Assembly: GCA_947258985.1 (NCBI GenBank)
Contig: CAMYKI010000012.1
Location: 1-64,000, forward strand
Source of the DNA: an uncultured Acidimicrobiaceae bacterium
Lineage (GTDB): Bacteria > Actinomycetota > Acidimicrobiia > Spongiisociales > UBA5794
DNA length: 64,000 bases
Direction: 5' to 3'
Shown one piece after another: positions 1,132 to 57,238 of this stretch; the stretch's first letter is position 1, and each line of letters begins with the position of its first letter. Position numbers and translations under genes: made by a program. The notes beneath the pieces were generated by a model that worked only from the letters and a program-made list of their open reading frames with translations, did not search any database and was not told the origin of the DNA.

Positions 1132-2088
1132 ATGAGTCTGCAACTAGCGGGCCAATGGGTCTGGGACTTCTGGCTGGCCCAGGATCGGGGCCTATGGCAC
1201 CTGTTCTATTTGCACGCACCACAGACCCCGGATGACCCCGACAAACGACACTTCGCAGCAACAGTCGGCCACGCCGTCTCCACCGACCTGGTGCGCTGGG
1301 ACGTACTCCCGGACGTGCTGGGTCCGGGGCCGGCAGGCTCCTGGGATGACGTGGCCACTTGGACCGGCTGTGTCGTCCCCCACCCGGATGGCGGCTGGGC
1401 CATGCTGTACACCGGAGTGGGAAGTGCCGAGGATGGTTTGGTGCAAAGGATCGGGTTGGCCCGATCGGCTGATTTGCGCACCTGGGTCAAACATCCGCAG
1501 AACCCGGTTGTGGAGGCGGATCCCCGTTGGTACGAGATGCTCAACTTGGACGTCTGGTTCGATCAGGCCTGGCGCGATCCATGGGTAGTGCTCGACGCAT
1601 CAAGCGTCTTGTTTCATGCGTTCATAACGGCACGATCCAATGCCGGAGACCCGAACCAACGTGGCGTCATTGGTCACGCAACGTCCCCGGACCTTGCGAG
1701 CTGGGTAGTGGGGCCTCCGATCAGGTCTCCGCAGGGTTTCGGATACATGGAGATACCCCAGGTGTTCTACCTCGAGGGTCGGTGGCATCTGCTGTTCTCG
1801 GCCCCGGCCTGGGCGCAGGAGGCGCGTCCCGGGTCACATTGCACAGGGACCCTCCACGCAATTTCCGATCGACTCACCGGAACGTATCGGGAAATGTCTC
1901 CTCTGTTCTGCGACGGCCAAGAGAGCCTGTACGGAGGAAAGGTTCTCGTAGCGGACGACGGCTTGTCCTGTCTTGCGTTCCGCTACCTGGATACGGCGGG
2001 CGATATCGTCGGCGAGCTGACGGACCCGATCCCGGTCAACATTGCTGCCGATGGTGCTCTGACTCTGGTAGAAAGCCACCCCTACTGA
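1132..2088 (+). CDS. Glycosyl hydrolase, five-bladed beta-propeller (GH32/GH43/GH68-like)
   Basis: WHLFYLHAP..., HAVSTDLVRW, RDP motif (AWRDPWVV), YMEIPQVFYLEGRWHLLFS pattern. Confidence 0.8.
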   Translation: MSLQLAGQWVWDFWLAQDRGLWHLFYLHAPQTPDDPDKRHFAATVGHAVSTDLVRWDVLPDVLGPGPAGSWDDVATWTGCVVPHPDGGWAMLYTGVGSAEDGLVQRIGLARSADLRTWVKHPQNPVVEADPRWYEMLNLDVWFDQAWRDPWVVLDASSVLFHAFITARSNAGDPNQRGVIGHATSPDLASWVVGPPIRSPQGFGYMEIPQVFYLEGRWHLLFSAPAWAQEARPGSHCTGTLHAISDRLTGTYREMSPLFCDGQESLYGGKVLVADDGLSCLAFRYLDTAGDIVGELTDPIPVNIAADGALTLVESHPY

Positions 2089-2101
2089 AGGAGCTGAGGT
2101 C

Positions 2102-3415
2102 GTGCACATCCTGCAGATCACCAATCATGGGTTGCACGAGTGGCAGGTGACGCCTGGTCTGCCGGACACCGGTGGCCAGAACGTATACGTCAACCACCTG
2201 TCTGCTGCCCTGGTTCGGCTCGGCCACCGTGTCACGATCGTTAATCGAGGTGGCTATCCGCACCCGCTCACCGGGGAGATGCACACCGGCGTCGTGCCCG
2301 CCCTCGATGGCCGGGCCCAGATCGTGTACCTCACCGACAGCACTTCATCATTCGTCCGCAAGGAGGATATGGAGGCTCAGGTTCCGGAGCTGGCTCGGCA
2401 ACTGGACGAGTTGATGCGGGGGCAGGGTTTCGATCTGGTCTTCTCGCACTACTGGGACGGAGCGCTGCTCGGCGTATTGGCTAATCAGACCTATCGGTTG
2501 CCGCACTACTGGGTCCCGCATTCGCTGGGCGCCATCAAGCGCCGCAATGTAGAGCCCGCGGCATACGCCGGGCTGCGAATCGACGACCGAATCGCCGCCG
2601 AGGCCCGCATCCTTGCTGCAGTCGACGGGGTGGTTGCCACTTCGGCTGCGGTTCGAGATAGCGTGCAGCACGACTACGGCTCCCAAGCGGAGTACTTCCT
2701 GCCACCCGGGGTCGACTACGAACGGTTCCGGCCGTTACCCGCCGCGGAATGTGAGCCGATCTGGGACTTCCTAGCCGAGCGATTGGGTACCGATCCCGCT
2801 GCGGTGCGCGACCGCCCACTAATCCTCGAGATCAGCCGAACCGACACCACCAAGCGGAAGGATGTACTGCTTCGTGCGTTTGCGGCTGCGGCGAACACAG
2901 AACCCCGGCCACTGCTGGCGGTCACGATCGACGACATCAACGAAGCACTGCATCAGGACCTGATAGACCTGATCGAGCAACTCGGAATCGGAGGCGATGT
3001 CGCAGTGCTCGGCTCGGTCTGGGACCAGCTCCCGTGCCTCTACTCCGAGGCGGCCATCTACTGCACCCCTTCGATCATGGAGGGCTTCGGTATGAGCGCC
3101 GCTGAAGCGGCGGCAGCGGCCACCCCCGTCATCGCCTCCGACCGCGTTCCTTTTGCGATCGAGCATCTACTCGGGGCGGAAGCGACTACCCGACCGATCT
3201 CTGAGGACACATCCATCACGATCGGTGCCGGGGTCATAGTGGTGCCCGCGGATTCGGTTGAGGGCTTTGCCGCCGCACTCGAGTTGCTTCTCGCCGACAA
3301 CGAGATGAGAGCCCGAATGGGGGACGCGGGCTATTCGATAACTGTGCCCGCTTTCGGGTGGGATCGCCTGGCGGGTTCGTTCCTCGAGTCTGTCTTCGAG
3401 GCATCCGATGGCTGA
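2102..3415 (+). CDS. Glycosyltransferase family 4, sucrose-phosphate synthase/sucrose synthase-like
   Basis: GTG start; PDTGGQNVYVNHLSAALVRLGH N-terminal motif, SRTDTTKRKD, GT-B EGFGMSAAEAAAAATPVIASD. Confidence 0.85.
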   Translation: MHILQITNHGLHEWQVTPGLPDTGGQNVYVNHLSAALVRLGHRVTIVNRGGYPHPLTGEMHTGVVPALDGRAQIVYLTDSTSSFVRKEDMEAQVPELARQLDELMRGQGFDLVFSHYWDGALLGVLANQTYRLPHYWVPHSLGAIKRRNVEPAAYAGLRIDDRIAAEARILAAVDGVVATSAAVRDSVQHDYGSQAEYFLPPGVDYERFRPLPAAECEPIWDFLAERLGTDPAAVRDRPLILEISRTDTTKRKDVLLRAFAAAANTEPRPLLAVTIDDINEALHQDLIDLIEQLGIGGDVAVLGSVWDQLPCLYSEAAIYCTPSIMEGFGMSAAEAAAAATPVIASDRVPFAIEHLLGAEATTRPISEDTSITIGAGVIVVPADSVEGFAAALELLLADNEMRARMGDAGYSITVPAFGWDRLAGSFLESVFEASDG

Positions 3416-4316
3416 GCCGCTCGCGCGCCGGCTGATCGATACGTGGGCGGATCAGATCCGATCGGGGTTCATATTGGGTGATCCGCATGCCCCGGTGGAG
3501 ACCCGATTTGTGCCCGATCCCGAGTCGGGGGTGACCTTCCGTCTGCGCTGGTTACCGCATCGAGAACTGCGAACCGACACTGGAGCATTGGAGAGCCGGG
3601 GTATTCTCAACCCCGACCGAGATGAAGCAGCCTTGCTCAGAGACCCGCGGGACCCGTCGGGGCGACACTGCTTCCTATGTCCTTCGAATGTGCGGATCTG
3701 CCATCCGCTCGAGGAACTGCTGCCAATTCGCGCCGGTGGTCGGACCTGGCTCGCCGGGGCGAACTTCGCCTGGTTGGCGCAGAACCACTTCACCGTTATG
3801 ACGGACGAGCATGTTGATCAGCTGTTCGACAGATCCGTCATCGAGGCAATGCTCGACCTCCAGGACCAGACCGGCGGTGAGTTCCGCATCGTCTTCAATG
3901 GTTCCCATGCGGGAGCCACCATTCCGTGGCACCTGCATGTGCAGATCACCACCGACTCGTTCCCGGTGGAGGAGATAGCGCCACACCGCATCTCGCGCTA
4001 CCCGACGCCGCTGCGGGTCTTTGATGGCCCCCGCTCGATCGCCATGGATGTAGCCGACTATGTAGCTTCCTGGGAGGAACGCGACCCGCACCATCATCGG
4101 GTCAATCTCCTGGTGTCTCTCCGGGAGGGGGTCCCAATCGTCTACACGTTCCTACGGGATACCCGGGTCACCGTTGCCCGAAACAAGGGGTTGATGGGAG
4201 GCTGGGAGGTTGCCGGAGTCTTCGCTTACAGCGATCGCCGCCCGGATTTCGAGGGAGCAGATATCGAATCGGTGCGGGCTGCATTCGCCGAGGTCCGGCC
4301 CCCCGACGCTCCGTAG
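3408..4316 (+). CDS. GalT/HIT-superfamily nucleotidyltransferase or phosphorylase-like protein
   Basis: HCFLCPSN motif, NHFTVMTDEHVDQ, WHLHVQ (HxHxQ) motif; start overlaps the preceding GT gene. Confidence 0.65.
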   Translation: MAEPLARRLIDTWADQIRSGFILGDPHAPVETRFVPDPESGVTFRLRWLPHRELRTDTGALESRGILNPDRDEAALLRDPRDPSGRHCFLCPSNVRICHPLEELLPIRAGGRTWLAGANFAWLAQNHFTVMTDEHVDQLFDRSVIEAMLDLQDQTGGEFRIVFNGSHAGATIPWHLHVQITTDSFPVEEIAPHRISRYPTPLRVFDGPRSIAMDVADYVASWEERDPHHHRVNLLVSLREGVPIVYTFLRDTRVTVARNKGLMGGWEVAGVFAYSDRRPDFEGADIESVRAAFAEVRPPDAP

Positions 4317-4358: not shown

Positions 4359-4952
4359 ATGACGTCTATCAACTACGACCGAGAGATGGCGCTCGTCGTC
4401 GTCGACGTGCAGAACGACTTCGCCGACCCGAATGGGAACCTCTACGTCGCGGGGGGCGAGGCGGTGGTCCCGGTAATCAATGCCGAGATTGCCGCTGCCC
4501 GGAGCGCCGGTGCCCGTGTCATCTACACCGCCGACTGGCACCCGGCGACGACACCTCATTTCGCTAAGGATGGTGGGACCTGGCCGGTCCACTGTGTGGG
4601 AGATACCTGGGGTGCCGAATTCCACCCGAGGCTGATCGTCGACGGTCCGGTGGTTCGCAAGGGAACCGGGGGCGAGGACGGCTACTCCGGATTCAGCGTG
4701 CGCGACCCGGAGTCGGGCCTTGTCACCGCTACCGCGCTGGCCGATCAGCTGGAGCGGTGGGGCGTACACACCGTGGTGATTTGCGGGTTGGCGACCGATT
4801 ACTGCGTCAAAGAGACGGCGCTCGACGGCGTGAAGGGCGGGCTTCGAGTTCTGCTGCTGGAGGAGGCGATGCTGCCAGTAGACCTCGAGCCGGGTGACGG
4901 GGTGCGTGCGCTGGCGGTAATGGTCGAAGCCGGGTGTGAGCTGGCCCTCTAG
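4359..4952 (+). CDS. pncA: Nicotinamidase / isochorismatase family hydrolase
   Basis: VVDVQNDFADPNG, KGTGGEDGYSGF, CGLATDYCVKETALD catalytic pattern. Confidence 0.9.
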   Translation: MTSINYDREMALVVVDVQNDFADPNGNLYVAGGEAVVPVINAEIAAARSAGARVIYTADWHPATTPHFAKDGGTWPVHCVGDTWGAEFHPRLIVDGPVVRKGTGGEDGYSGFSVRDPESGLVTATALADQLERWGVHTVVICGLATDYCVKETALDGVKGGLRVLLLEEAMLPVDLEPGDGVRALAVMVEAGCELAL

Positions 4953-35792: not shown

Positions 35793-37271
35793 CTAGTCCC
35801 GGGTCACCTCGCTGAGTATCGTCCCGTCGGCGGCCCGAATGCGCATGATTATCGGCATCTGTCCGGGCAGGCTGTGGGTGGCGCAGGCGAAACAGGGGTC
35901 GTAGGCCCGGAAGGCCATCTCGACCTTGTTGAGCACCCCTTCGGTGACTTCAACACCTTTGTGAATCAACCCCTGTGCTGCCTTCTTGATCGACATGCTG
36001 ATCGAGGCGTGGTTGTTGGTGGTGCCCACGATCAGGTTGACCTTCTGCAGCAACCCGCGTTCATCCGTGACGTAGTGATGCGTCAGTGTCCCCCGTGGTG
36101 CCTCGACCGAGCCGATGCCTTCGGTCGGCACCTCGGTGGGCACCGTCCGGATGTCGGGGTTGGTGATCTCTTCGTCGAGCGCCAGCTCCATGGTGCGCTC
36201 TGCGGCATAGATCAACTCGACTACCCGCGCCCAATGGGTCGCCAGCGTCTGGTGCACCGGCGTACTTCCTGTCGGGTCGCCGGTGAGTGTCTTGAAGTAC
36301 CGCTCGTACTGCTCCTGCGCCAAGGGTGTCGCCATCCCCGTGGCTGCATTCAGGCGCGACAGGGGCGAGGCCCGATAGACCCCGCTGTCAATTCCGTCCG
36401 TGAATCCGGTCCAGCCCTTTGCCTTCAGGAACGGGAACTTGAGGTAGCTCCACGGCTCGACGTGCTCGGCGACATGGTCGAGGTAGTCCCGAGGGTGATA
36501 TTGAACGATCTCGGCGCCTTCGGTGTCGACAACCCGCACTTCTCCGTCGTAGAAATTGACGTGACCGTTCTCATCGACGGTGCCCATCGAATGGAAGCGG
36601 TGGGTATACGTGTCGGACAGGATCAGGTCCATGTAGTCGTGATTAGCCAGCACCACGTCGTCGAGGATCTGCAGGGTGAACTTGCCGAACTCGAGTAGCT
36701 GCTTGGCGTGGTCGACGATCTCCAGCCGTTCCTCCTCGGTGAGACCCTTGGTGACCCCTCCCGGTATGGACGTGACCATGTGGATGGTCTTGCCGCCGAG
36801 AATCTTGACTATCTCGTGCGCCGCAGCCCTGGCGCCGATGACCACTTTCCCCGTGTCGATGCCGAGTTTGTGGATCATCCCCAAAATGTTCCGCTCTGCC
36901 GGGGGAGCCTCCGGGCCCATCACGAAGTCGGGTCCACTGAGGATGTAGAAGTGCGTCGCATGGTCGCCGGTGAAGAACGCGTTGTACATCAGCTCGCGGA
37001 GCTTGCGCCCCGTCGGCGGGATCTCGACGTGGTAGGTGTCGTCGCAGGCCTTGGCCGCCGCCATGTGGTGGGCCTCGCTACATACCCCGCAGATGCGCGA
37101 TGTGATCCGCGGCATGTCCTCAACCGGGCGGCCGACGCAGAACGCCTCGAAGCCGCGCAGCTCGGGCACGATGAAGAAGCAATCGGCTACTTCGCCGTCG
37201 TCATCGAGGAAGATGTCGATCTTGCCGTGACCTTCGAGCCGTGTGATCGGGTCGATCTCGATCTTCCTCAT
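35793..37271 (-). CDS. mvhA: [NiFe] hydrogenase large subunit (MvhA/group 3-like)
   Basis: L1 RICGVCSEAHH, L2 DPCFACATH, RLEGHGKIDIFLDDDG; C-terminal extension after the L2 His. Confidence 0.93.
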   Translation of the reverse strand: MRKIEIDPITRLEGHGKIDIFLDDDGEVADCFFIVPELRGFEAFCVGRPVEDMPRITSRICGVCSEAHHMAAAKACDDTYHVEIPPTGRKLRELMYNAFFTGDHATHFYILSGPDFVMGPEAPPAERNILGMIHKLGIDTGKVVIGARAAAHEIVKILGGKTIHMVTSIPGGVTKGLTEEERLEIVDHAKQLLEFGKFTLQILDDVVLANHDYMDLILSDTYTHRFHSMGTVDENGHVNFYDGEVRVVDTEGAEIVQYHPRDYLDHVAEHVEPWSYLKFPFLKAKGWTGFTDGIDSGVYRASPLSRLNAATGMATPLAQEQYERYFKTLTGDPTGSTPVHQTLATHWARVVELIYAAERTMELALDEEITNPDIRTVPTEVPTEGIGSVEAPRGTLTHHYVTDERGLLQKVNLIVGTTNNHASISMSIKKAAQGLIHKGVEVTEGVLNKVEMAFRAYDPCFACATHSLPGQMPIIMRIRAADGTILSEVTRD

Positions 37272-38281
37272 GAGCCAGCCTCGCTTTCACCATTCCCGTT
37301 CCCTGCGCCGACGGTCACCGGCCCCAACGTCGCATGGGCCATCGAGAAGCGGTAGAACGTACCGACTGGGTCGACGATGCCGTCGAGGATCCGATCGATC
37401 TCTTCCGGGTCGTCGGAGTCGATGACCGACGCCAGTGCCGCGATCATCTTCGTGCCCTGATCCTTGGAGTTGGGTGCCGGCCCGTAGCAACCCCGACAGG
37501 GGACTCCAACACCGACGCACAGCCCTCCGCATCCGCTGCGTGTTGCCGGCCCCATGCAAACAATCCCCTGGTCCAGCAAGCATTGATCGGGATCGGGAAT
37601 CACCTCATGGATCCGGACGAATCCCTTGAGCTTCTTCTCTTTCCTCTCGCGAGGGCACTCGTCACAACAGGTCTTGTCGCCCGCGCCGAGAACCGTCCCC
37701 TTGGGGGGCAGCGGCTTGGCGTTCTCCAGGATGTCGATGACCGCCTCCAGGACACCCCAGATCTGGTGAGCCTGCGGCGGGCAGCCGGGCACGAAATAGT
37801 CGACATCGGTGATCTGGTCCAGCGCATACACCGTCTCGTAGAACTCAGGTAGCTCCAGCACGCCGACCGGGACTTCGGTTCGTGTTTGCGGCATGACCCG
37901 ATCCGGGTTCACCGTCGACGGGGAGTCGGCGAAGGCCCAGTTCAGAGTGGCGTCCCGCGTCGTCGTGTTCGACAACGCAGGGATGCAGCCCTCACATGCA
38001 CACGACCCAAAGGCAACGAGGATCTTCGACTTCCGTCGCAGCAGTTCTGCCATGTATTCGTTGTCCGACGTCCGCACCGCGCCGTTGAACAGACACAGAT
38101 CGATCTCGTCGTCGTCCATGGCTTCGACATCCTTGACCTTGAAGTCAACGGCGACCGGCCAGAAGACAACGTCGAAGAAGGCGTCGACATCGAGGATCTT
38201 CTCCTTGATGTCGAGCACTGCGATCTCGCAGCCCCCGCAGGATGCTGCCCAGTACAAAGCGAGCTTCGGCTTGTCACTCAT
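37268..38281 (-). CDS. mvhG: [NiFe] hydrogenase small subunit (MvhG-like)
   Basis: YWAASCGGCEIAVLD, FGSCACEGCIPAL, VPGCPPQ; several downstream Cys motifs. Confidence 0.92.
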   Translation of the reverse strand: MSDKPKLALYWAASCGGCEIAVLDIKEKILDVDAFFDVVFWPVAVDFKVKDVEAMDDDEIDLCLFNGAVRTSDNEYMAELLRRKSKILVAFGSCACEGCIPALSNTTTRDATLNWAFADSPSTVNPDRVMPQTRTEVPVGVLELPEFYETVYALDQITDVDYFVPGCPPQAHQIWGVLEAVIDILENAKPLPPKGTVLGAGDKTCCDECPRERKEKKLKGFVRIHEVIPDPDQCLLDQGIVCMGPATRSGCGGLCVGVGVPCRGCYGPAPNSKDQGTKMIAALASVIDSDDPEEIDRILDGIVDPVGTFYRFSMAHATLGPVTVGAGNGNGESEAGS

Positions 38282-38733
38282 GAGCCCACCTCCAACGGTC
38301 CCAGGGCTCTGATTCGGGCCGCCATCTCATTGGCAGTCTCGGCCCACTGGTCGCCTTCGCTCGCCGAAACCCAGACCAACTCGATCCGACTCGGGTCGAT
38401 CCCGAACCCCTCGATGAGGCGCTTCAGGAGATGGACCCGCCGCAGCGTCTTGTAGTTGCCTTCCTGGTAGTGGCAATCACCTGGATGACATCCAGAGACG
38501 ATCACGCCGTCTGCTCCCATGCTGAACGCCTTGGCAACAAACGTCGGGTCCATTCGACCCGAGCACATCACCCGGACGATGCTGACCGACGGATCCCACT
38601 GGATACGAGAGATCCCCGCCAGATCAGCCCCGGTGTAGCTGCACCAATTGCAGAGAAACGCCACGATTCTCGGCCGCCATTCGGCAGCGGTCACCTCCGG
38701 CGGTTTCAACGGAGCTTCCGTGGTGGTTGTCAT
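38278..38733 (-). CDS. mvhD: MvhD-like electron-transfer subunit linking hydrogenase to Hdr
   Basis: FLCNWCSYTGADLAG, VRVMCSGRMDP, VSGCHPGDCHYQEGN. Confidence 0.93.
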   Translation of the reverse strand: MTTTTEAPLKPPEVTAAEWRPRIVAFLCNWCSYTGADLAGISRIQWDPSVSIVRVMCSGRMDPTFVAKAFSMGADGVIVSGCHPGDCHYQEGNYKTLRRVHLLKRLIEGFGIDPSRIELVWVSASEGDQWAETANEMAARIRALGPLEVGS

Positions 38734-41700
38734 GTCGCCACCTCCTGAGCGATCGGGCCCGACAGAATCGGGGCCAGGATGCCGTCGAGTTCCGCAAGTA
38801 TCTGCTCGTCGGTGAATCCGGCGCCGGTGATCGCCGCCGCCGGGCAGGCAGCAACGCAGGTGCCGCACCCCTTGCACAGCGCCTCGTTGATCACTGCGTT
38901 GTTGTGCTCCTCGTCGAACGTGATCGCGGTGTATGGGCACAGCCCCAGGCACGTCTTGCAGCCGCCGCACAGGTGCTCCTGCACGGTCGCCCGCACCGGT
39001 TCGATGATCACCTCCCCCTTCGAGATCATTGCCAGGATGTTGGCTGCGGCTGCCTGCGCCTGGGCGACCGTGTCCGGGATATCCTTCGGTCCCTGAGCGC
39101 ACCCGGCGACGTAGACGCCATCCGTTGTGGTGCCGACCGGGTCGAGTTTGGGGTGGCGCTCCAGGAAGAACCCGTCGGGGCTGCGACTCAGCGAAAAGAC
39201 CCTTCCCACTTGCTCGGCATCCGGCTGCGGCTCGATGGCGCCCATGAGCACCACCATGTCCACAGGAATCTCGCGATAGCGTCCGATGAGCGTGTCCTCG
39301 GCCCGGACCACCAGATGCCCACCCTCGCCGTTGCTGCGGCGGGCGGGCATGACCTCGACAACCTTGCCGCGTATGACGTTGGCTCCCTCTTCGAGAACCC
39401 GCAGATAGAACTCCTCGTATCCCTTCCCGAAGGCCCGCATGTCGATGTAGAACTCGTAGAGCTCGGCATCGGTGCGGTCCTTGACCAGGTGGGCGAACTT
39501 GAGAGCTGCCATACAGCAGACCCGGGAGCAGTAGCGGTTGTAGTTCTCGTCGCGCGAACCGACGCAGTGGACGATGGCCACCGATCGTGGCGGCTTTCCG
39601 TTCTTGCACAGAATCTGGCCGCCCGTCGGCCCGGTGGAGTTGAGCATTCGCTCGAATTCGGCGCTGGTGACGACGTTGTCGTACCGACCGTACCCATACG
39701 GTGTCATTCGAGCCGGATCGAACGACTTGAAGCCGGTGGACACCAGGATCTGCCCGACCTCGAGTTCGACAAAACTGTCCTTCATGTCCAGCTGGACCGC
39801 ATCCGGCGGACAGATGTTCTGGCACGATTCGCACTCGACACAGACGCCGCAGTGCAGGCAGCGTGTTGCTTCGCGAATCCCCTCTTCTTCGGTCAGCCCG
39901 ATGTCGACCGTGTCGTAGTCGGCCAGTCGGGCGGCCGGATCACGTGCCTCCAGTCGGGCTCGGGGGATTTTCTCGATCTGGTCGTAGGTCGGGCCGTGCT
40001 CGTATGGCCGCTTCACGAAACCGCGTACCGGATCCGGCGGTGCCACGTGAGTCGAGAAGTCCTCCAGCGGCTTGCCTTGCAGGTACTTGTCGATTGCCTC
40101 GGCGGCACGCCGCCCCTGCCCCATTGCCTCGACTATCGAGGCCGGGCCGAGCACGACATCGCCACCGCCGAAGACACCTGGAACACCGGTCTGTAGAGAT
40201 TCTGCCTCGACGACCAGTGTGTCCCATTTGGTGAAACCGATCTCGCCTTTCTCGGGGACACTGCTCTTGTACCAGGTGCGGAAGGGCTGCTGGCTGACCG
40301 ACGGGATGATCATGTCGAATTCGCGCAAGTGTTCCGAGCCCTCCAATGGAACCGGCCGGGCCCGGCCGCTTGCATCGGGCTCGCCGAGGTCATTGATGAT
40401 GCAGCGCAGCCCGGTCACTTGTCCGTCGTCGACGATTACCTCGAGCGGCGACACGAGGTAATCGAACTTGACGCCTTCTGCGATGGCGCCTTCAACCTCC
40501 TCAGCGTCCGCCGGCATCTCCCTGGCCGTACGGCGGTAGAGGACGGATACCTCGGCGCCCTGGCGACGGGCAGTTCGGGCGACATCCATCGCCGTGTTGC
40601 CCCCGCCGATGACGGCGACGCGCCGTCCGGTGGGCTGAGCCCGACCCAGGTTGATTTCGCGCAGGTAGTCGATCCCGAGGATGACACCTTCGGTATCTTC
40701 TCCCGGAACTTTGAGCGGCAGCCCACGGTGGGCGCCGAGGCCCATGAACACGGCTCCAAAGCCAAACTCCGGCTTGTCGCTGAGCAGGTCGGCGAGCTTG
40801 AAGTCGACGCCGAGTTCGACACCGGTCTTCATCTCGACTCCCGTCTTGCGGATGTAGTCGAGATCGCGTTCGACGATCTCAGGCGGGCAGCGGTAGTCGG
40901 GAAGACCGACCGCCAGCATGCCGCCCAGCTTGTCGTGCTTCTCGAAGACCGTGACCTTGTATCCCTCCTGAGCCAGGTCGAATGCACAGGTCAGCCCGGC
41001 CGGACCCGAACCGATGACTGCGACCTTCTCGGTGTAGTCGTGTTCCGGTGGGTCGGGCTGCGGGTCCGGTTCGTGCTCCCGTTCCCAATCCATCGCCAGC
41101 CGTTTCAGGCCACGGATGGCGACGGGGTCGTCGACCTTGCCCCGGCTGCACGCCGTCTCGCAAGGGTGGTAGCAAACCCGGCCGCACACGAAGGGTAGGG
41201 GGTTGCGCCTGCGGATCAGCTTGGCAGCTTCGGCGATTCGCCCGTCGGCGATAAGTGCCACATAGCCCGCCGCATTCTGGTGGATTGGGCACGCCTCCAT
41301 GCATGGCGGGCTTCCCTGCTTCTCGATGACGTAGGTACTGGGGATCGCCTGCGGAAACGCCTTGTGAATCGCATGCCGGGTTGAGATGTATTCGTTGAAC
41401 GGATCCGGCACGTTGACGGGGCACACGTTGAGGCACTCGCCGCATGAGGTACAGGCGTCGGTCACGAATCGGGCCTTGTTGCGTACCTTCACCTTGAAGT
41501 TACCCACAAAGCCCTCGACCGATTCCACCTCGGCCATTGTCATCAGATGCAGGTTCTCCCGCCGCTCCGCAGACACCATCTTTGGGGTGAGGATGCAGGC
41601 AGCGCAGTCCAGGGTGGGGAAGGTCTTGTCGAACTTGGCCATCATGCCGCCGATGGTCGACTTCCGTTCCACCAGATAGACGTCGTTGCCGGCCTCGGAA

Positions 41701-42191
41701 ATGTTGAGCGCCGCCTGGATGCCGGCGATGCCGCCCCCGACGACCAGGGTTGCCGGGTTCATCTCCGCATAGGTGGGATCGAGTGGCTCGTGCAGCGCTA
41801 CCCGGCTGATAGCCCCGTTGACCAGAGACGCAGCCTTGGCGGTGGCGGCCGCTCGATCATCGTGTACCCACGCACATTGCTCGCGGATGTTGGAGATTTG
41901 CACGAGGTAGGGGTTGAGGTCGGCTTCTTGTGCGGCCGCCCGGAAGGTGGGTTCGTGCATCAGCGGGCTGCAAGCCGCAACGACGACCCGGTTGACCCCT
42001 TTTTCCTGGATGTCCTTTTTGATCAGATCCTGGCCGGCATTGGAACACATGAACTGGTAGTCGCATGCCGAAACGACATTGGGCCGAGTGGCGGCCTCAT
42101 CGCGTACCGCTTCGACATCGACGGTGGCGGCGATGTTGAATCCGCAGTGGCAGACATAGACGCCGACTCTGGGTTCTCCATTCTCAGCCAT
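38730..42191 (-). CDS. hdrA: HdrA-like iron-sulfur flavoprotein with inserted GltD/NfnB-like NAD(P)-dependent oxidoreductase module
   Basis: HdrA FAD domain TLVVGGGIAGIQAALNISEAG; second FAD motif VAVIGSGPAGLTCAFDLAQEG and nucleotide motif VAVIGGGNTAMDVARTARRQGAEV; C-terminal two [4Fe-4S] motifs. Confidence 0.93.
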   Translation of the reverse strand: MAENGEPRVGVYVCHCGFNIAATVDVEAVRDEAATRPNVVSACDYQFMCSNAGQDLIKKDIQEKGVNRVVVAACSPLMHEPTFRAAAQEADLNPYLVQISNIREQCAWVHDDRAAATAKAASLVNGAISRVALHEPLDPTYAEMNPATLVVGGGIAGIQAALNISEAGNDVYLVERKSTIGGMMAKFDKTFPTLDCAACILTPKMVSAERRENLHLMTMAEVESVEGFVGNFKVKVRNKARFVTDACTSCGECLNVCPVNVPDPFNEYISTRHAIHKAFPQAIPSTYVIEKQGSPPCMEACPIHQNAAGYVALIADGRIAEAAKLIRRRNPLPFVCGRVCYHPCETACSRGKVDDPVAIRGLKRLAMDWEREHEPDPQPDPPEHDYTEKVAVIGSGPAGLTCAFDLAQEGYKVTVFEKHDKLGGMLAVGLPDYRCPPEIVERDLDYIRKTGVEMKTGVELGVDFKLADLLSDKPEFGFGAVFMGLGAHRGLPLKVPGEDTEGVILGIDYLREINLGRAQPTGRRVAVIGGGNTAMDVARTARRQGAEVSVLYRRTAREMPADAEEVEGAIAEGVKFDYLVSPLEVIVDDGQVTGLRCIINDLGEPDASGRARPVPLEGSEHLREFDMIIPSVSQQPFRTWYKSSVPEKGEIGFTKWDTLVVEAESLQTGVPGVFGGGDVVLGPASIVEAMGQGRRAAEAIDKYLQGKPLEDFSTHVAPPDPVRGFVKRPYEHGPTYDQIEKIPRARLEARDPAARLADYDTVDIGLTEEEGIREATRCLHCGVCVECESCQNICPPDAVQLDMKDSFVELEVGQILVSTGFKSFDPARMTPYGYGRYDNVVTSAEFERMLNSTGPTGGQILCKNGKPPRSVAIVHCVGSRDENYNRYCSRVCCMAALKFAHLVKDRTDAELYEFYIDMRAFGKGYEEFYLRVLEEGANVIRGKVVEVMPARRSNGEGGHLVVRAEDTLIGRYREIPVDMVVLMGAIEPQPDAEQVGRVFSLSRSPDGFFLERHPKLDPVGTTTDGVYVAGCAQGPKDIPDTVAQAQAAAANILAMISKGEVIIEPVRATVQEHLCGGCKTCLGLCPYTAITFDEEHNNAVINEALCKGCGTCVAACPAAAITGAGFTDEQILAELDGILAPILSGPIAQEVAT

Positions 42192-42192
42192 G

Positions 42193-43116
42193 TCAACCCT
42201 CCCTCGTCCCGGCGATGGTCAGAGGCGCTCCGCGATCCTGCGCCGACCGCAGCCGAGGCGCCTTTGCATCCGGTGGAATCAGTGCGTGCTGCATGCCGAC
42301 CTCCTCGGGGGTGCAACCGATGGCGAGGCCGATGAGTTGGGTGAAGTAGAGGACCGGTATCTGATGCGACTTGCCGTTGCTGCCTTTGGTGACGTTGATC
42401 AGATCGAGATTGGACTGACACAGCGGGCATACGGTGACGATGCAGTTCGCCTCATTCGCAATCGCCCAGTCCACGAGATCCATGCTCAAGTCCGTGGCGA
42501 CCTCAGGCATGGTGGCAACGAGCATTCCCCCGCAGCAGCGGACCTTGGGCGGGTAGTCGACGGGGCGGGCGCCAAGCGCCGTGAAGAGGTTCTCCATCGA
42601 CATGGGCAATTCGGGATCCTCATCGACCGCACCGAAGGGGCGGACGATCTGGCAGCCGTAGTAGCAGGCCGGGCGGAACTCCTCCAGGCTGTGGGTCTGG
42701 GCTTCGATCAATTGCGGTATGCCGATGTCGGTGAGCAGCACCTCTAGGGGGTGGCGTACCGCGACGGTCAGGTCGGTTGCGAGACCTCCCGCTGCCAGAG
42801 CTTCGTCCACCTGGGCCCGCAACTCGGGATCCTCGCCCATGCCCTCGCGGGTGTGCTTGAGGGCGTAGTAGCAGGCGCTGCAAGGGGCGACGACGTCATC
42901 GCCGGTCCTTTCGGCGAGAGCCAGGTTGCGCGCCGAAACCGCAAAGGCAACGGTCTTCTGGACGGACATGTACGCCGTCGCCCCGCAGCAATTCCAGTCT
43001 TCGAGTTCGGCCAATTCAGAACCTAGCTTGTCGAACACGGCCCGCATCGATTTGTCGTAGGCGATGCCGGTGGCGTGGAGGCTGCAACCCGGGTAGTAGG
43101 TGTAACGCTTGTCCAT
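42193..43116 (-). CDS. hdrB: Heterodisulfide reductase subunit B-like (two CCG domains)
   Basis: YYPGCSLHATG...WNCCGATAY and CYYGCQIVRPF...RCCGGML. Confidence 0.93.
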   Translation of the reverse strand: MDKRYTYYPGCSLHATGIAYDKSMRAVFDKLGSELAELEDWNCCGATAYMSVQKTVAFAVSARNLALAERTGDDVVAPCSACYYALKHTREGMGEDPELRAQVDEALAAGGLATDLTVAVRHPLEVLLTDIGIPQLIEAQTHSLEEFRPACYYGCQIVRPFGAVDEDPELPMSMENLFTALGARPVDYPPKVRCCGGMLVATMPEVATDLSMDLVDWAIANEANCIVTVCPLCQSNLDLINVTKGSNGKSHQIPVLYFTQLIGLAIGCTPEEVGMQHALIPPDAKAPRLRSAQDRGAPLTIAGTREG

Positions 43117-43119
43117 GTC

Positions 43120-43791
43120 CTACCTCCCGATCGACTCGTAGCCGACAGCTGCCGTGACCTTCTCCTTGGTCACCTTTTCCTGAGGAAGATCGAATGTCTC
43201 TGCCTTGGCAATGATCTTCCTCAATTGCTCAATGCCCTTGATCTTGTCGGGACGGAGCTTGATCCGACCGTGACGCAACAGCGCAATACCGGCGTTGCGC
43301 TGCCGGAAGAGCCCGATCGGCTTGGTCTTGAGGAAGTATGTGAGCAGCAGGCCGACCTCGTAGTTGCGTCCGTAGCGTTTCACGTTATTGGTGAACGTTT
43401 CCGACATGACGTGTACCGGGAACCGCTTCGGGAAGATGCCTTCCTCGATGGCAATCCGTTTGAGCGCATAGAACAGGTCTGTGATTTGGATCTGGGCAGG
43501 GCAGCGCAATGTGCAGTGGTAGCAGGACGCACAGAGCCATATTGTGCGGCTTTCGAGCAGCTCCTCGATGGCCCCGGCTCGGAACATGCCGATGACCTGA
43601 CGCGGGGTGATGTCCATTGCGTGGCTCACAGGACACGATGCGGTACAGGTGCCGCATTGGATGCATTGGTTGAGTCGCCCCCCGCCGGGGATGCGCTCGA
43701 TCTCTTCGAGGAACGCTGTTCTCAGTTCATGTTCCTTCTTCGACAGCACGCCGGGCGCAATTGGTCCGGCCAACGGATCGAGCGTCTTCAT
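43120..43791 (-). CDS. hdrC: Heterodisulfide reductase subunit C-like, two [4Fe-4S] motifs
   Basis: CIQCGTCTASCPV and CASCYHCTLRCPAQIQI. Confidence 0.92.
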   Translation of the reverse strand: MKTLDPLAGPIAPGVLSKKEHELRTAFLEEIERIPGGGRLNQCIQCGTCTASCPVSHAMDITPRQVIGMFRAGAIEELLESRTIWLCASCYHCTLRCPAQIQITDLFYALKRIAIEEGIFPKRFPVHVMSETFTNNVKRYGRNYEVGLLLTYFLKTKPIGLFRQRNAGIALLRHGRIKLRPDKIKGIEQLRKIIAKAETFDLPQEKVTKEKVTAAVGYESIGR

Positions 43792-52681: not shown

Positions 52682-53479
52682 ATGCTTGCCGAGCAACGCC
52701 AGGGGCACATCCTCGAGTTGGTTCGAAGAGACGGGGCTGTACGCGTATCTGACCTCGTACGGGATCTTGGCGTTTCCGACATGACTATTCGCCGGGATCT
52801 CGGGGTCTTGGCGGCATCGGGACTTGTGCAGAAGGTCCATGGCGGGGCGACTCTGGTTGCCGACAGCGCTTCCTACGAGCCCAGCTTCACCGCAAAGTCC
52901 ACGTTGGAGCAACAGGAGAAACGTACGATCGCCAGGGAGGCGGCGGAGCTGGTTGTACCGGGAACCGCCATCGCCATGAGCGCCGGCACCACCACCCACG
53001 CTGTCGCCGGTGAACTGCTCGATGTTCCCGGCCTGACGGTGGTAACCAATTCGGTCCACATTGCCGACCTGCTTTATCAGCACGGCAGGAGCGATCAGAC
53101 TGTTCTCTTGACCGGGGGGCTGCGCACCCCATCGGACGCCTATGTCGGCCCGCTGGCGGTGAACGCGCTGATCTCGATTCACGTCGACCTGGTCTTCATG
53201 GGTGTGCACGGAATGACCCTGGAGACCGGTTTCACCACGCCAAACATGCTGGAAGCAGAAACCGATCGGGCGCTGGTCGACGCCGGACGACGCCTGGTGG
53301 TTTGCGCCGACCACACTAAGTGGGGTGTCGTTGGCATCAGTTCCTTTGCCCGGCTCGATGAGGCAGACATCCTGATCACCGATTCCGCGCTCGAGCCCGC
53401 CGCTGCAGCCGTGTTGGAGGAGACAGTCGGCGAGCTCGTGCTCACTGGTCACGATTCACAAGACAGGACGACCGTATGA
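52682..53479 (+). CDS. DeoR family transcriptional regulator
   Basis: RDGAVRVSDLVRDLGVSDMTIRRDLGVLAASGLVQKVHGGA. Confidence 0.95.
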   Translation: MLAEQRQGHILELVRRDGAVRVSDLVRDLGVSDMTIRRDLGVLAASGLVQKVHGGATLVADSASYEPSFTAKSTLEQQEKRTIAREAAELVVPGTAIAMSAGTTTHAVAGELLDVPGLTVVTNSVHIADLLYQHGRSDQTVLLTGGLRTPSDAYVGPLAVNALISIHVDLVFMGVHGMTLETGFTTPNMLEAETDRALVDAGRRLVVCADHTKWGVVGISSFARLDEADILITDSALEPAAAAVLEETVGELVLTGHDSQDRTTV

Positions 53480-54564
53480 AAAAGACACCAACAAAGATGG
53501 CCGACGGTCGCGAGCTCATCTACTACGACGAGGATGAGTCGGCGATTCGCGAAACCTCGGATCTGCGTGACCTTCCCGACCTCCAGGTCACGTCGGAGGT
53601 CCGTCACGACCCGATTCTGGATGAGTGGGTCGTGGTTGCCTCCCACCGGCAGACGCGCACCTTCCTGCCTCCGACGAACCAGTGCCCACTCTGTGCCACC
53701 AACGCGGACAATGCGACCGAGATCCCGGCCGACGACTACGACGTCGTTGTGTTCGAGAACCGTTTCCCGAGCCTGGCCCTCAATGCGCTCGACGTGGATC
53801 CCAAGGTCCCGGTCGATTCCGATCTTGTGGAGCGCCGCCCGGCTCGGGGCCGCTGCGAGGTGGTGGTCTTCACCAGCAACCATGACAGGTCCTTCTCCCA
53901 GCTCCCCGTCGAGCGGGTCCGGACTGTCCTGGACGTTTGGGCAGATCGCACCGCCGAACTGAGTGCGATGCCGGGAATCGAGCAGGTGTTCCCGTTCGAG
54001 AACTGTGGTGTGGAGATAGGTGTCACGCTGAGCCACCCCCACGGCCAGATCTACTCGTATCCGTTTGTGACGCCGAAGACCAACCGCATGCTGCGTAGCG
54101 CCAGGCGCCACATGGAGGAAACCGGTCGGAATCTCTTCGCCGACGTGCTTGCTGCGGAGCGTAGGCTGAAGGCGAGAGTGGTCGCAGAGAACGACAACTG
54201 GACGGCGTTCGTGCCTTCGGCGGCGCGCTGGCCGATCGATCTCCACATCTACCCCCACCGCCGGATGGCCGATATGACGCAACTGACCGAAGCCGAGCGG
54301 GATGACTTCGCCGAGATGTACCTGGGGATTCTCCAGAAGCTCGACTCTCTCTACGGCAAGCCGCTTCCGTACATTGCGGGCTGGCACCAGGCTCCGGTCA
54401 ATCGAGATCGAGATCTTGCGTACCTGCATCTGGAGTTGCTCTCGGTGCAACGATCCGCCGACAAGCTGAAGTACCTTGCCGGCTCCGAGTCTGGCATGGC
54501 AGTCTGGATCAACGACGCCACGCCAGAGCGGATCGCCGAGATGCTGCGTGAGGCGGGGACGTGA
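53476..54564 (+). CDS. galT: Galactose-1-phosphate uridylyltransferase
   Basis: FENRFPSLAL, VTLSHPHGQIYSYPFVTP. Confidence 0.95.
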   Translation: MKKTPTKMADGRELIYYDEDESAIRETSDLRDLPDLQVTSEVRHDPILDEWVVVASHRQTRTFLPPTNQCPLCATNADNATEIPADDYDVVVFENRFPSLALNALDVDPKVPVDSDLVERRPARGRCEVVVFTSNHDRSFSQLPVERVRTVLDVWADRTAELSAMPGIEQVFPFENCGVEIGVTLSHPHGQIYSYPFVTPKTNRMLRSARRHMEETGRNLFADVLAAERRLKARVVAENDNWTAFVPSAARWPIDLHIYPHRRMADMTQLTEAERDDFAEMYLGILQKLDSLYGKPLPYIAGWHQAPVNRDRDLAYLHLELLSVQRSADKLKYLAGSESGMAVWINDATPERIAEMLREAGT

Positions 54565-55694
54565 ACGGTGCGGCCAGACTCTTTCGGTGGATATACGAAT
54601 CCGAGCCGGATGGTGTCTGGGCTGCACCCGGGAGAGTCAACCTGATCGGTGAGCACACCGACTACAACGATGGCCTCGTGCTTCCCTTCGCCCTGCAGGA
54701 ACGCACCTTGGCAGCTATCAAGCAGCGAGACGATGGGCTCATCCGGATCTGCTCTTCACAGAATCCCAATGAAATCATCGGCATACCGACCAAGGAACTT
54801 GCTCCAGGCTGGCCCGCTGGATGGTCGGGCTACGTTGCGGGAGTCCCGTGGGCGTTGGAGACCGACATCGGGTTTGATGTCGCCATCGACAGCTCGGTAC
54901 CGGTGGGATCTGGGCTTTCGTCTTCGGCCGCCCTGATTTGCGCCGTGGGTCTCGGACTGAACGAGCTCTTCGGTCTCGGCTTCAGCCGGCGTGAGCTGGC
55001 CCGTCGCACCCATTTGACTGAGAACGAGTACGTCGGTGCTCCCACCGGCGGTATGGATCAGATCGCATCGCTGTTGTGCATCGAAGGGCATGCCATCTTG
55101 TACGACGTTCGGGCCGACTCAGTGGACCAAATCCATTTTGATCCGATCGGCGCCGGTTTCGAGGTTGTGGTCGTTGACACCATGGTGCGTCACGGCCACG
55201 CCGGCGGCGAGTATGCCGCTCGCCGTGAGGACTGTGAGCTTTCCGCGGCGAAGCTGGGTGTCGCCACCTTGCGCGACGTGGCGTATGCCGATCTCGACTC
55301 GGCCTTGGACAAGCTCGGAGATGAGCAATTGATCAAGCGGACCCGGCATGTCGTGACAGAGAACCAGCGGGTGCTGGACACTGCTGCCGCTCTCGATGCC
55401 GACGACTGGCCGGCAGTAGGTGAGTTGCTGACGGCGGCACACACCTCGATACGCGATGATTTCGAAGCCAGTTGCGTAGAACTCGACATCGCCGTCGACA
55501 TGCTGCTCGACTCCGGCGCCCTCGGGGCGAGAATGACGGGCGGCGGATTTGGAGGCGCCGCTATTGCTCTCGTAGCCACCGAAAAGTCCGAGTCGGCCCG
55601 CCGCACTGTGCGGTCGGTGTTTGCCGACAACGGCTTCGTTCCACCTCACATTTTCACGGTTGTGCCTTCGGCCGGGGCAACCCGGATCGCCTGA
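54561..55694 (+). CDS. galK: Galactokinase
   Basis: APGRVNLIGEHTDYNDGLVLPFAL, VGSGLSSSAALICAVGLGL, MTGGGFGGAAIAL. Confidence 0.96.
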   Translation: MNGAARLFRWIYESEPDGVWAAPGRVNLIGEHTDYNDGLVLPFALQERTLAAIKQRDDGLIRICSSQNPNEIIGIPTKELAPGWPAGWSGYVAGVPWALETDIGFDVAIDSSVPVGSGLSSSAALICAVGLGLNELFGLGFSRRELARRTHLTENEYVGAPTGGMDQIASLLCIEGHAILYDVRADSVDQIHFDPIGAGFEVVVVDTMVRHGHAGGEYAARREDCELSAAKLGVATLRDVAYADLDSALDKLGDEQLIKRTRHVVTENQRVLDTAAALDADDWPAVGELLTAAHTSIRDDFEASCVELDIAVDMLLDSGALGARMTGGGFGGAAIALVATEKSESARRTVRSVFADNGFVPPHIFTVVPSAGATRIA

Positions 55695-55711
55695 AATCGC
55701 AAGGAGCGGCA

Positions 55712-57238
55712 ATGGACAGTAAGCGGTTCTCGCTTTATGGGAACACGATCACGCCTGCGCAGGATCGCAAGGCGTTGAAGTGGCAGGACATGTTCGTCAA
55801 GCAGTTTGGGTTTGACCCCGACGAACACTACGAGCTCAGTGTTCACGACAACTCCTACCTGGGTGATGTGCTCGGGATACGTGATATCAGGCGTGACGGC
55901 AGTGGGGACCCGATCGATCCCGAGACCGGGGTGATCATCTCGACGATCAGGATGGGTTTTGGCCACTACCGCATCGCCATGGCAGGCGCTTCGGCTGCAC
56001 GGGCGATGGGGTTCACACCTCTATGGCTGGACCTGCTCGGAATCCCGGGCGTCCCTTCTGACGTGATCAACTGGTGGAACACCAACTACAGCAAGTACTC
56101 CCGGGTATCGCAGCGGTCGAAGCTGTTCAACAAGTACGTGTGGGAATCGGTGACTTCCGGTGATCGCACCCTTCCCGGACTCAACTGGGCGCTCAACAAC
56201 TATGCGATCGGGTGGCCTTGGCGTTTCCTCAAAGCCAACGCTCGTGACTATCGCAAGAGTGAGCTGTTCGCACCGCTGCACAAGGCCCTCCCATCCGAGA
56301 TGCCGATCCTGACCGCACATATGTGGAACTGCATGGGGGCGGTGTCGGGCGGGATGACCAATGTCGTAGACATGATGTTCGACAACTGGCCGATGGCGTT
56401 CCAGTTGACGGAAGGCGCCACCCATGCCGTGCAGTCACCCTCGGGGTACTACGGCTTCCGCATCATGAACCAGTTTGATGAGAAGGATCGGCTGCTCAAC
56501 CCGACGCCGGCGGATGCGATCGAATTTGTCGGCCACCACGTTGACCACGAGCTGGTGGAGAACATCGAAGTGGATTGTGAGGCCCGGATGAGCCGCATGA
56601 GCGATGGTGAGCCGCGACGCTTCCTCCTCACGATGGGCGGCGCCGGAGCGCAGCGGGAGCTCTTCAAGGCCATCGTCGATCACTGTCTGCCCATGATCGA
56701 GCGAGGCGAACTGACGCTGTTCGTCAACCTGGGCGATCACGCCGACAACTGGGATTGGCTCGAAGGCGAGCTGGGGACGACTCCGGTCACGACACATTTC
56801 GATTGGGAGGAAACCAGGACTTTTGCTGATGGGATCAGGGACGGTTCGACCAGCGGGTTGCATGTGTTCTTGTACGACAACACCTTTCACGGCGTTTACG
56901 CCAGCAACTATCTGATGCGCGTATCGGATGTCTTGATCACGAAACCATCGGAGCTGGCGTTCTACCCGATTCCCAAAATCTTCAACGAGCGAGTGGGTGC
57001 CCATGAGGCATGGGGGGCAATCCGCAGCGCGGAACTGGGCGATGGGACCATCGAGACCCGCACCATCCCGCGCACCTTGCAGGCGATCGATCTGATGACC
57101 AAGGAGCAGGATCTGATGACGATGTTCTGCGACATGATCGTCAAGAACAAGGGCATTGGGATCTACGACGGCGCCTACAAGTGCGTTGAGCTGGCGACCG
57201 GGAAGAGGTTCGCCCGGGAGGAACTGGTCAGCTCTTAG
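55712..57238 (+). CDS. Uncharacterised ~508-aa protein, possible GT-B-type glycosyltransferase
   Basis: GFGHYRIAMAGASAARAMGF near N-terminus, LLTMGGAGAQRELFKAI in the middle, late KPSELAFYPIP; starts 17 bp after galK. Confidence 0.6.
   Translation: MDSKRFSLYGNTITPAQDRKALKWQDMFVKQFGFDPDEHYELSVHDNSYLGDVLGIRDIRRDGSGDPIDPETGVIISTIRMGFGHYRIAMAGASAARAMGFTPLWLDLLGIPGVPSDVINWWNTNYSKYSRVSQRSKLFNKYVWESVTSGDRTLPGLNWALNNYAIGWPWRFLKANARDYRKSELFAPLHKALPSEMPILTAHMWNCMGAVSGGMTNVVDMMFDNWPMAFQLTEGATHAVQSPSGYYGFRIMNQFDEKDRLLNPTPADAIEFVGHHVDHELVENIEVDCEARMSRMSDGEPRRFLLTMGGAGAQRELFKAIVDHCLPMIERGELTLFVNLGDHADNWDWLEGELGTTPVTTHFDWEETRTFADGIRDGSTSGLHVFLYDNTFHGVYASNYLMRVSDVLITKPSELAFYPIPKIFNERVGAHEAWGAIRSAELGDGTIETRTIPRTLQAIDLMTKEQDLMTMFCDMIVKNKGIGIYDGAYKCVELATGKRFAREELVSS

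Follow-up and report, generated by a model that had tools for sequence, protein, structure and literature searches.

A GT4 glycosyltransferase coupled to a DUF4922 HIT-superfamily protein in a sugar-import operon of an uncultured actinobacterium

Introduction

Plants and animals have HIT-superfamily enzymes that split GDP- or ADP-sugars by phosphorolysis; among them, plant GGP has lost one histidine and hence prefers phosphate to water, and another enzyme, from Arabidopsis, acts in this way on ADP-glucose (PMC11066809). The domain DUF4922 has been reported in a protein of the rose GGP group (PMC9871823), and in bacteria it is a family without an assigned function in the literature that we examined. 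Here we describe a bacterial DUF4922 protein encoded in a 64,000-nucleotide stretch of DNA (hereafter the window) from the 3.6 Mb genome of an uncultured Acidimicrobiaceae bacterium, where it forms a triplet with a glycoside hydrolase-like protein (GH) and a glycosyltransferase of the GT4 family (GT4-1) behind the permeases of a sugar ABC transporter. We tentatively propose that the HIT protein and GT4-1 handle one shared nucleoside diphosphate (NDP)-sugar, fed by LacI-regulated ABC import and by cleavage through the GH, and we assign this reading of the whole locus, the best explanation that we can offer, a probability of about 0.38.

The two partner proteins likewise have described relatives. 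Among the GT4 enzymes, sucrose-phosphate synthase (SPS; TeSPS, 6kih, and HoSPS, 2r60) and MshA (3c48) consist of a single GT-B domain with a GGQ/GGM loop; in TeSPS, the phosphate group of sucrose-6-phosphate is bound by R105 and R178, and neither H158 nor E331 is dispensable (PMC7264703). The sucrose synthases (AtSUS1, 3s27; NeSuSy, 4rbn) belong to the same fold family and have a PDTGGQ-like loop, and the TreT trehalose synthases are further GT4 enzymes connecting a disaccharide with an NDP-sugar; they work with free glucose and a number of NDP-glucoses (PMC11046441). On the hydrolase side, the beta-fructofuranosidases and fructansucrases of families GH32 and GH68 (clan GH-J) have a five-bladed beta-propeller and an Asp/Asp/Glu triad in common. 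The proteins studied here belong to known families in a combination for which we found no description: the literature on DUF4922, NDP-sugar phosphorylases and mannosylfructose, searched mostly outside subscription journals, yielded no such GT4-HIT pair. A preliminary description of the locus, made from the DNA sequence alone, had likewise recognised no described pathway in it.

Results

A coupled GT4-HIT gene pair within a sugar-import operon

The preliminary description had reported the triplet and its place behind sugar ABC permeases, and its coordinates were right. All the genes run on the forward strand: the GH gene (1132-2088; Pfam Glyco_hydro_32N, 2e-16) follows the second permease after 9 bp, GT4-1 (2102-3415; GTG start; Pfam Glycos_transf_1, 1e-23) follows the GH gene after 13 bp, and the HIT gene (3408-4316; DUF4922, PF16269, 2e-10) overlaps the stop of GT4-1 by exactly the 8 bp noted earlier (ATGGCTGA, 3408-3415, forward strand), an overlap that points to translational coupling. 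Their dN/dS against relatives is 0.12-0.19 for each of GH, GT4-1 and HIT; all three are thus real genes and evolve under purifying selection.

Within the order, of which 138 genomes were compared, the HIT protein is present in nine (five genera) and GT4-1 in seven (four genera), and in all seven GT4-1 stands directly before HIT. The two genes overlap by 8 bp in five genomes, with ATGNCTGA recurring in the relatives G003, G004, G005 and G042, and by 4 bp in two (G391 and G396). The chance of all four GT4-1 genera falling within the five HIT genera, out of 61, is ~1e-5, a figure that ignores relatedness and joint transfer. Farther afield, a search at E 1e-15 recovered HIT from no further genome among 395 sampled from the class, and in 297 sampled genomes of the phylum the matches were the window's own genome and three marginal ones. 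Three DUF4922 loci of Bacteroidota had no neighbour resembling the genes of the window.

The complete operon is seen in G003 (L012), in the order LacI regulator, binding protein, permease, permease, GH, GT4-1, HIT; together with the overlap in the window, this order bears out the earlier suggestion that the genes are coupled and belong with a sugar importer. G004 has the same order from the second permease onward. In G005 (L014), GT4-1 follows the permease and the GH gene is missing, as it is from the GT4-HIT locus of G396. In G391 (L033), a binding-protein-like gene, the permeases and the GH gene share one strand, and GT4-HIT occupies the opposite strand ~6 kb away, all within a single 10-kb contig. 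Conservation of the triplet, which the preliminary description had put forward as a check, thus holds for the GT4-HIT pair in every genome with GT4-1; the GH gene is absent from the locus in two of them.

GT4-1 has acceptor-site residues of the SPS/MshA type

GT4-1 is a protein of 437 aa with one GT-B domain, and its nearest solved relatives are SPS (6kih) and MshA (3c4q/3c48), at ~25% identity. The PDTGGQ motif, which had been read as a mark of the sucrose synthases and SPS, is indeed present (LPDTGGQ, residues 20-26), and because an SPS-like GT4 of the same order has it too, it is not diagnostic of sucrose synthase. In a residue table, K87, Y117, S141, K146 and R163 align with the acceptor-phosphate residues of SPS and MshA; other key residues are H140, the EX7E pair E327/E335, and R246/K251. 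The TeSPS residues R105, R178, H158 and E331 correspond to K87, R163, H140 and E327 (after correcting the chain numbering by 3), and K87, Y117, S141, K146, R163, H140 and E327 are conserved in the seven GT4-1 proteins. SPS, MshA and GT4-1 therefore have in common, besides the single GT-B domain with its GGQ/GGM loop, the catalytic H and E, the EX7E motif and the acceptor-phosphate positions (K/R, Y, S/T, K, R), whereas GT4-1 differs from them in having 22-28% identity, EGFG in place of EPFG/ESFG and, in the window's genus, no SPP partner.

Unlike GT4-1, whose seven members all have R163 and S141, the solved sucrose synthases 3s27 and 4rbn have Gln and Ala at these positions. In this residue-by-residue alignment with SPS, MshA and sucrose synthase, R163 sets GT4-1 apart from sucrose synthase without proving a phosphorylated acceptor. 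Sucrose synthase as an identity for GT4-1 was rejected, since GT4-1 also lacks the SSN domains (437 aa vs ~800); Pfam GT-B_Sucrose_synth gave an E of 0.23. Assignments to MshA and SPS were not supported either, the NCBIfam equivalog scores (111.7 of 462.5 bits and 88.5 of 576 bits, respectively) being far under the cut-offs and, for SPS, a convincing S6PP-type phosphatase being absent from the window's genus and adjacent in G396 only. GT4-1 is approximately equidistant from SPS, MshA and GT4-2, an SPS-like protein of the same order. TreT, for its part, was not among the PDB sequence matches, it differs in taking free glucose as acceptor, and the TreT literature consulted mentions no HIT partner.

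The HIT protein combines GalT-type motifs with the predicted fold of a phosphorylase

The HxHxQ and CxxC motifs previously noticed in the third protein lie in IPW-H175-L-H177-V-Q179 (HLHVQ, 175-179) and C88-F-L-C91-P-S-N (CFLC, 88-91), and are accompanied by H127. Its PF16269 score is 41.2 bits vs a curated cut-off of 23.6, and 7/7 family members match. Across 11 homologues, two of them from Bacteroidota, the invariant residues include W13, C88, C91, H127, H135, Q138 and IPWHLH (172-177). For its AF2 model (pLDDT 79) the sole significant PDB match is the yeast Ap4A phosphorylase Apa2 (E 5e-7, TM 0.55-0.6), which has the same fold at 14-15% identity; sequence searches of the PDB gave nothing convincing. 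In Pfam at E 10, the HIT members matched no Ap4A phosphorylase or ATP-transferase family and, besides DUF4922, yielded weak matches at chance level. Hence a grouping with Ap4A phosphorylases, which the preliminary description had named as a refutation, is found by fold and not by sequence family.

GalT of the Leloir pathway shares the CxLCPxN and HxHxQ motifs with the HIT protein, but the GalT domains PF01087/PF02744 gave no match at E 10 and the profile comparison was weak (hhalign probability 11-16). A full-length GalT homologue was therefore rejected, the likeness being confined to the motifs, as was a role as the GalT of this genome, given that the window carries a separate GalT-like gene (53476-54564) with GalK (53476-55694). 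The GDP-L-galactose, GDP-glucose and ADP-glucose phosphorylases (VTC2, the C. elegans enzyme and At5g18200) have the two-His motif of the superfamily in common with the HIT protein; no solved structure or Pfam model of them matched it by sequence. Taken together, the motifs and the modelled fold fit a phosphorylase or a nucleotidyltransferase. Our best guess is that the HIT protein phosphorolyses an NDP-sugar, with plant GGP and the Arabidopsis ADP-glucose enzyme as precedents; an NDP-hexose phosphorylase is favoured by the GalT-type motifs in combination with the phosphorylase fold, and an Ap4A-type activity is the main rival.

Directly after HIT in G003, which belongs to the same genus as the window, lies on the minus strand a gene for a divergent guanylate-kinase-like P-loop protein (L012:3361-4110), for which the genome of the window has only a weak match, located elsewhere. 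This neighbour could hint at guanine nucleotides.

The hydrolase is GH-J-like and lies outside GH32 proper

The AF2 model of the GH (pLDDT 81) finds its best PDB matches almost exclusively among GH32/GH68 proteins (E down to 3e-15), in support of the beta-propeller hydrolase described earlier. The clan GH-J features are present: a five-bladed propeller and an Asp/Asp/Glu triad formed by D12 (in WVWDFW), D149 (of R148-D149-P150) and E207, with D12, R148-D149-P150 and E207 invariant across eight homologues down to 31% identity. As had been remarked, the GH has no WMNDPNG motif; WVWDFW occupies the equivalent position. Moreover, the protein (318 aa) ends after the propeller, without the C-terminal beta-sandwich of GH32, and its identity to GH32/GH68 proteins is 14-21%. 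With both the motif and the sandwich missing, membership in GH32 proper was rejected, and the GH is better described as GH-J-like. It likely acts on a fructofuranoside, judging from sequence and model, and its N-terminus, inspected by eye, is not signal-peptide-like. G005 additionally has a paralogous operon (L041:343-6698) in which a 41% identical copy of the GH is preceded by genes for ABC permeases, a canonical GalT and a GH1, so substrates within this GH family may vary.

Sucrose-type genes adjoin the pair in two genera

GT4-1-HIT adjoins sucrose-type genes in two of the four genera. The cluster in G396 (L034:4618-10903) comprises the SPS-like GT4-2, a GH100-like hydrolase on the other strand, an S6PP gene (PF05116, 2e-62), GT4-1 and HIT, the last three being co-directional, with S6PP 32 nt ahead of the pair. 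In G042 (L015), the pair is convergent with an SPS-like GT4-2 and near a distant GH32-like gene. These neighbours support a sucrose-like metabolite, though GT4-1-HIT does not depend on them: neither an S6PP above noise nor a GT4-2 was found in the window's genus, including the 93% complete genome G000, and in related genomes S6PP stands beside GH100 or GT4-2 without GT4-1. A GT4 with a partnered phosphatase, which the preliminary description had regarded as refuting its proposal, is therefore found in one genus of four and not in that of the window.

Discussion

A proposed mechanism and its rivals

We posit that the LacI-regulated ABC operon would import a small glycoside, in which the cytoplasmic GH-J-type enzyme (GH32/GH68-like) would split a fructofuranoside-like bond. 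GT4-1 would catalyse NDP-hexose + sugar-phosphate <-> glycosyl-sugar-phosphate + NDP, and the HIT protein, via a nucleotidyl-histidine intermediate, NDP-hexose + Pi <-> hexose-1-phosphate + NDP. NDP would thus shuttle between the two enzymes, which in sum would reversibly phosphorolyse, or synthesise, a glycosyl-sugar-phosphate, running in either direction. What the sequences show is the genes with their predicted folds and motifs, the coupling of GT4-1 to HIT and the joint occurrence of the two; family precedents suggest the chemistry of each enzyme. A shared NDP-sugar is favoured because GT4-1 is found only overlapping a HIT gene, in 7/7 genomes and 4/4 genera, and a phosphorylated acceptor because the SPS/MshA acceptor-phosphate residues are conserved in all GT4-1 proteins.

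The bolder claim that GT4-1 and the DUF4922 protein constitute a two-enzyme disaccharide(-phosphate) phosphorylase with catalytic NDP as carrier strikes us as unlikely. If true, hexose-1-phosphate could be obtained from a glycoside by phosphorolysis, or used to build one, with no net consumption of nucleoside triphosphate, and glycosyl transfer would be linked to phosphate rather than pyrophosphate chemistry, saving high-energy phosphate. Bacterial DUF4922 proteins would thereby gain a function, and their strict coupling to a GT4 already gives the family a concrete hypothesis, namely nucleotide-sugar phosphorolysis. Even if the HIT protein acts on dinucleotides, the pair would show a minor nucleotide enzyme recruited into a sugar operon.

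Several observations weigh against a shared NDP-sugar fed by import and cleavage. The operon in the window lacks a kinase or phosphatase by which the sugar phosphate could be formed or removed. The GH, missing from the locus in two genomes, is not an obligate partner. The nearest fold of the HIT protein is an Ap4A enzyme and not a nucleotide-sugar enzyme, and the final position of HxHx(Q/H) is not constant among family members. HIT also persists without GT4-1 in G050 and in G001 (only 77% complete), and so has a use of its own; in G001 it precedes isochorismatase, methyltransferase and transporter genes that the window has as well. The Apa2-like fold and the occurrence of HIT alone would suit an enzyme that has nothing to do with sugars, a dinucleotide phosphorylase of the Ap4A type or a nucleotide hydrolase, whose coupling to GT4-1 is incidental, as would the guanylate-kinase-like gene of G003; we nonetheless consider such an enzyme quite improbable, given the GalT-like CFLCPSN motif, the lack of any Ap4A family match and the unbroken coupling of GT4-1 genes to HIT.

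Alternatively, the locus might be biosynthetic: an SPS-like GT4 would produce a disaccharide phosphate akin to sucrose-6-phosphate, an S6PP-type phosphatase would then remove the phosphate on the way to a compatible solute, the HIT protein would trim or repair the NDP-sugar pool, as proposed for the animal GDP-glucose phosphorylase, and the importer and GH would recycle leaked or environmental sugar. The SPS/MshA-type pocket and the sucrose-type neighbours in G396 and G042 speak for this scenario, which we hold to be somewhat unlikely: the genus with the best-formed operon lacks the phosphatase partner, S6PP elsewhere accompanies GT4-2 or GH100 with no need of GT4-1, and coupling to an importer suggests expression induced by uptake. 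The mechanism originally put forward, in which a sucrose-synthase-like GT4 runs in reverse on an imported unphosphorylated disaccharide and HIT phosphorolyses the NDP-hexose to hexose-1-phosphate, accommodates the importer and LacI regulator within one operon and the coupling of GT4-1 to HIT, and TreT provides a GT4 precedent with a free sugar acceptor. Its HIT half remains plausible. Its GT4 half is probably wrong, since the SPS/MshA-type acceptor residues, R163 in place of Gln and the S6PP gene immediately upstream in one genome disfavour cleavage of free sucrose; the N-terminal domains of sucrose synthase are missing, and GT4-1 and the GH would be competing for one disaccharide. We accordingly find the scheme as a whole highly doubtful, and retain as the preferred reading an NDP-sugar shared by HIT and a GT4-1 with a presumed phosphorylated acceptor.

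Importer, flanking genes and other features of the window

Because the window begins at the start of its contig (C12), the LacI regulator, the binding protein and most of permease 1 are missing from it and are known solely from relatives. What is left of the first sugar ABC permease is its 3' end (2-235, +), an open frame whose stop overlaps the next ATG and whose position agrees with permease 1 of L012 and L014. The second permease, of the MalG/UgpE type (232-1122, +; Pfam BPD_transp_1, 8e-16), gave UgpE/MalG-like NCBIfam matches under the cut-off and is 88-91% identical in G003 and G005. A PDB sequence search with the substrate-binding protein of G003 (L012:9330-10652) returned nothing at 1e-12. 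The permease part (1-1122) shows 84% DNA identity to G005 (L014) and GT4-HIT 70%, so importer and enzymes have different evolutionary rates or different histories. Downstream of HIT lie an isochorismatase/nicotinamidase-like gene (4359-4952) and then a methyltransferase gene on the opposite strand.

Elsewhere in the window, a DeoR regulator gene is followed by the GalT-like gene (SHPHGQ motif) and GalK, which overlap by 4 bp; the same region encodes a sugar binding protein, permeases and a melibiase-like hydrolase. Just downstream of GalK is a gene (55472-57238) for a protein with DUF6937 (E 2e-89) and DUF6938 (1e-95). Finally, positions 35793-43791 carry a putative NiFe-hydrogenase/heterodisulfide-reductase-like redox cluster, recognised from an Oxidored_q6 match and a large flavin and iron-sulfur protein, with the remainder assigned by eye.

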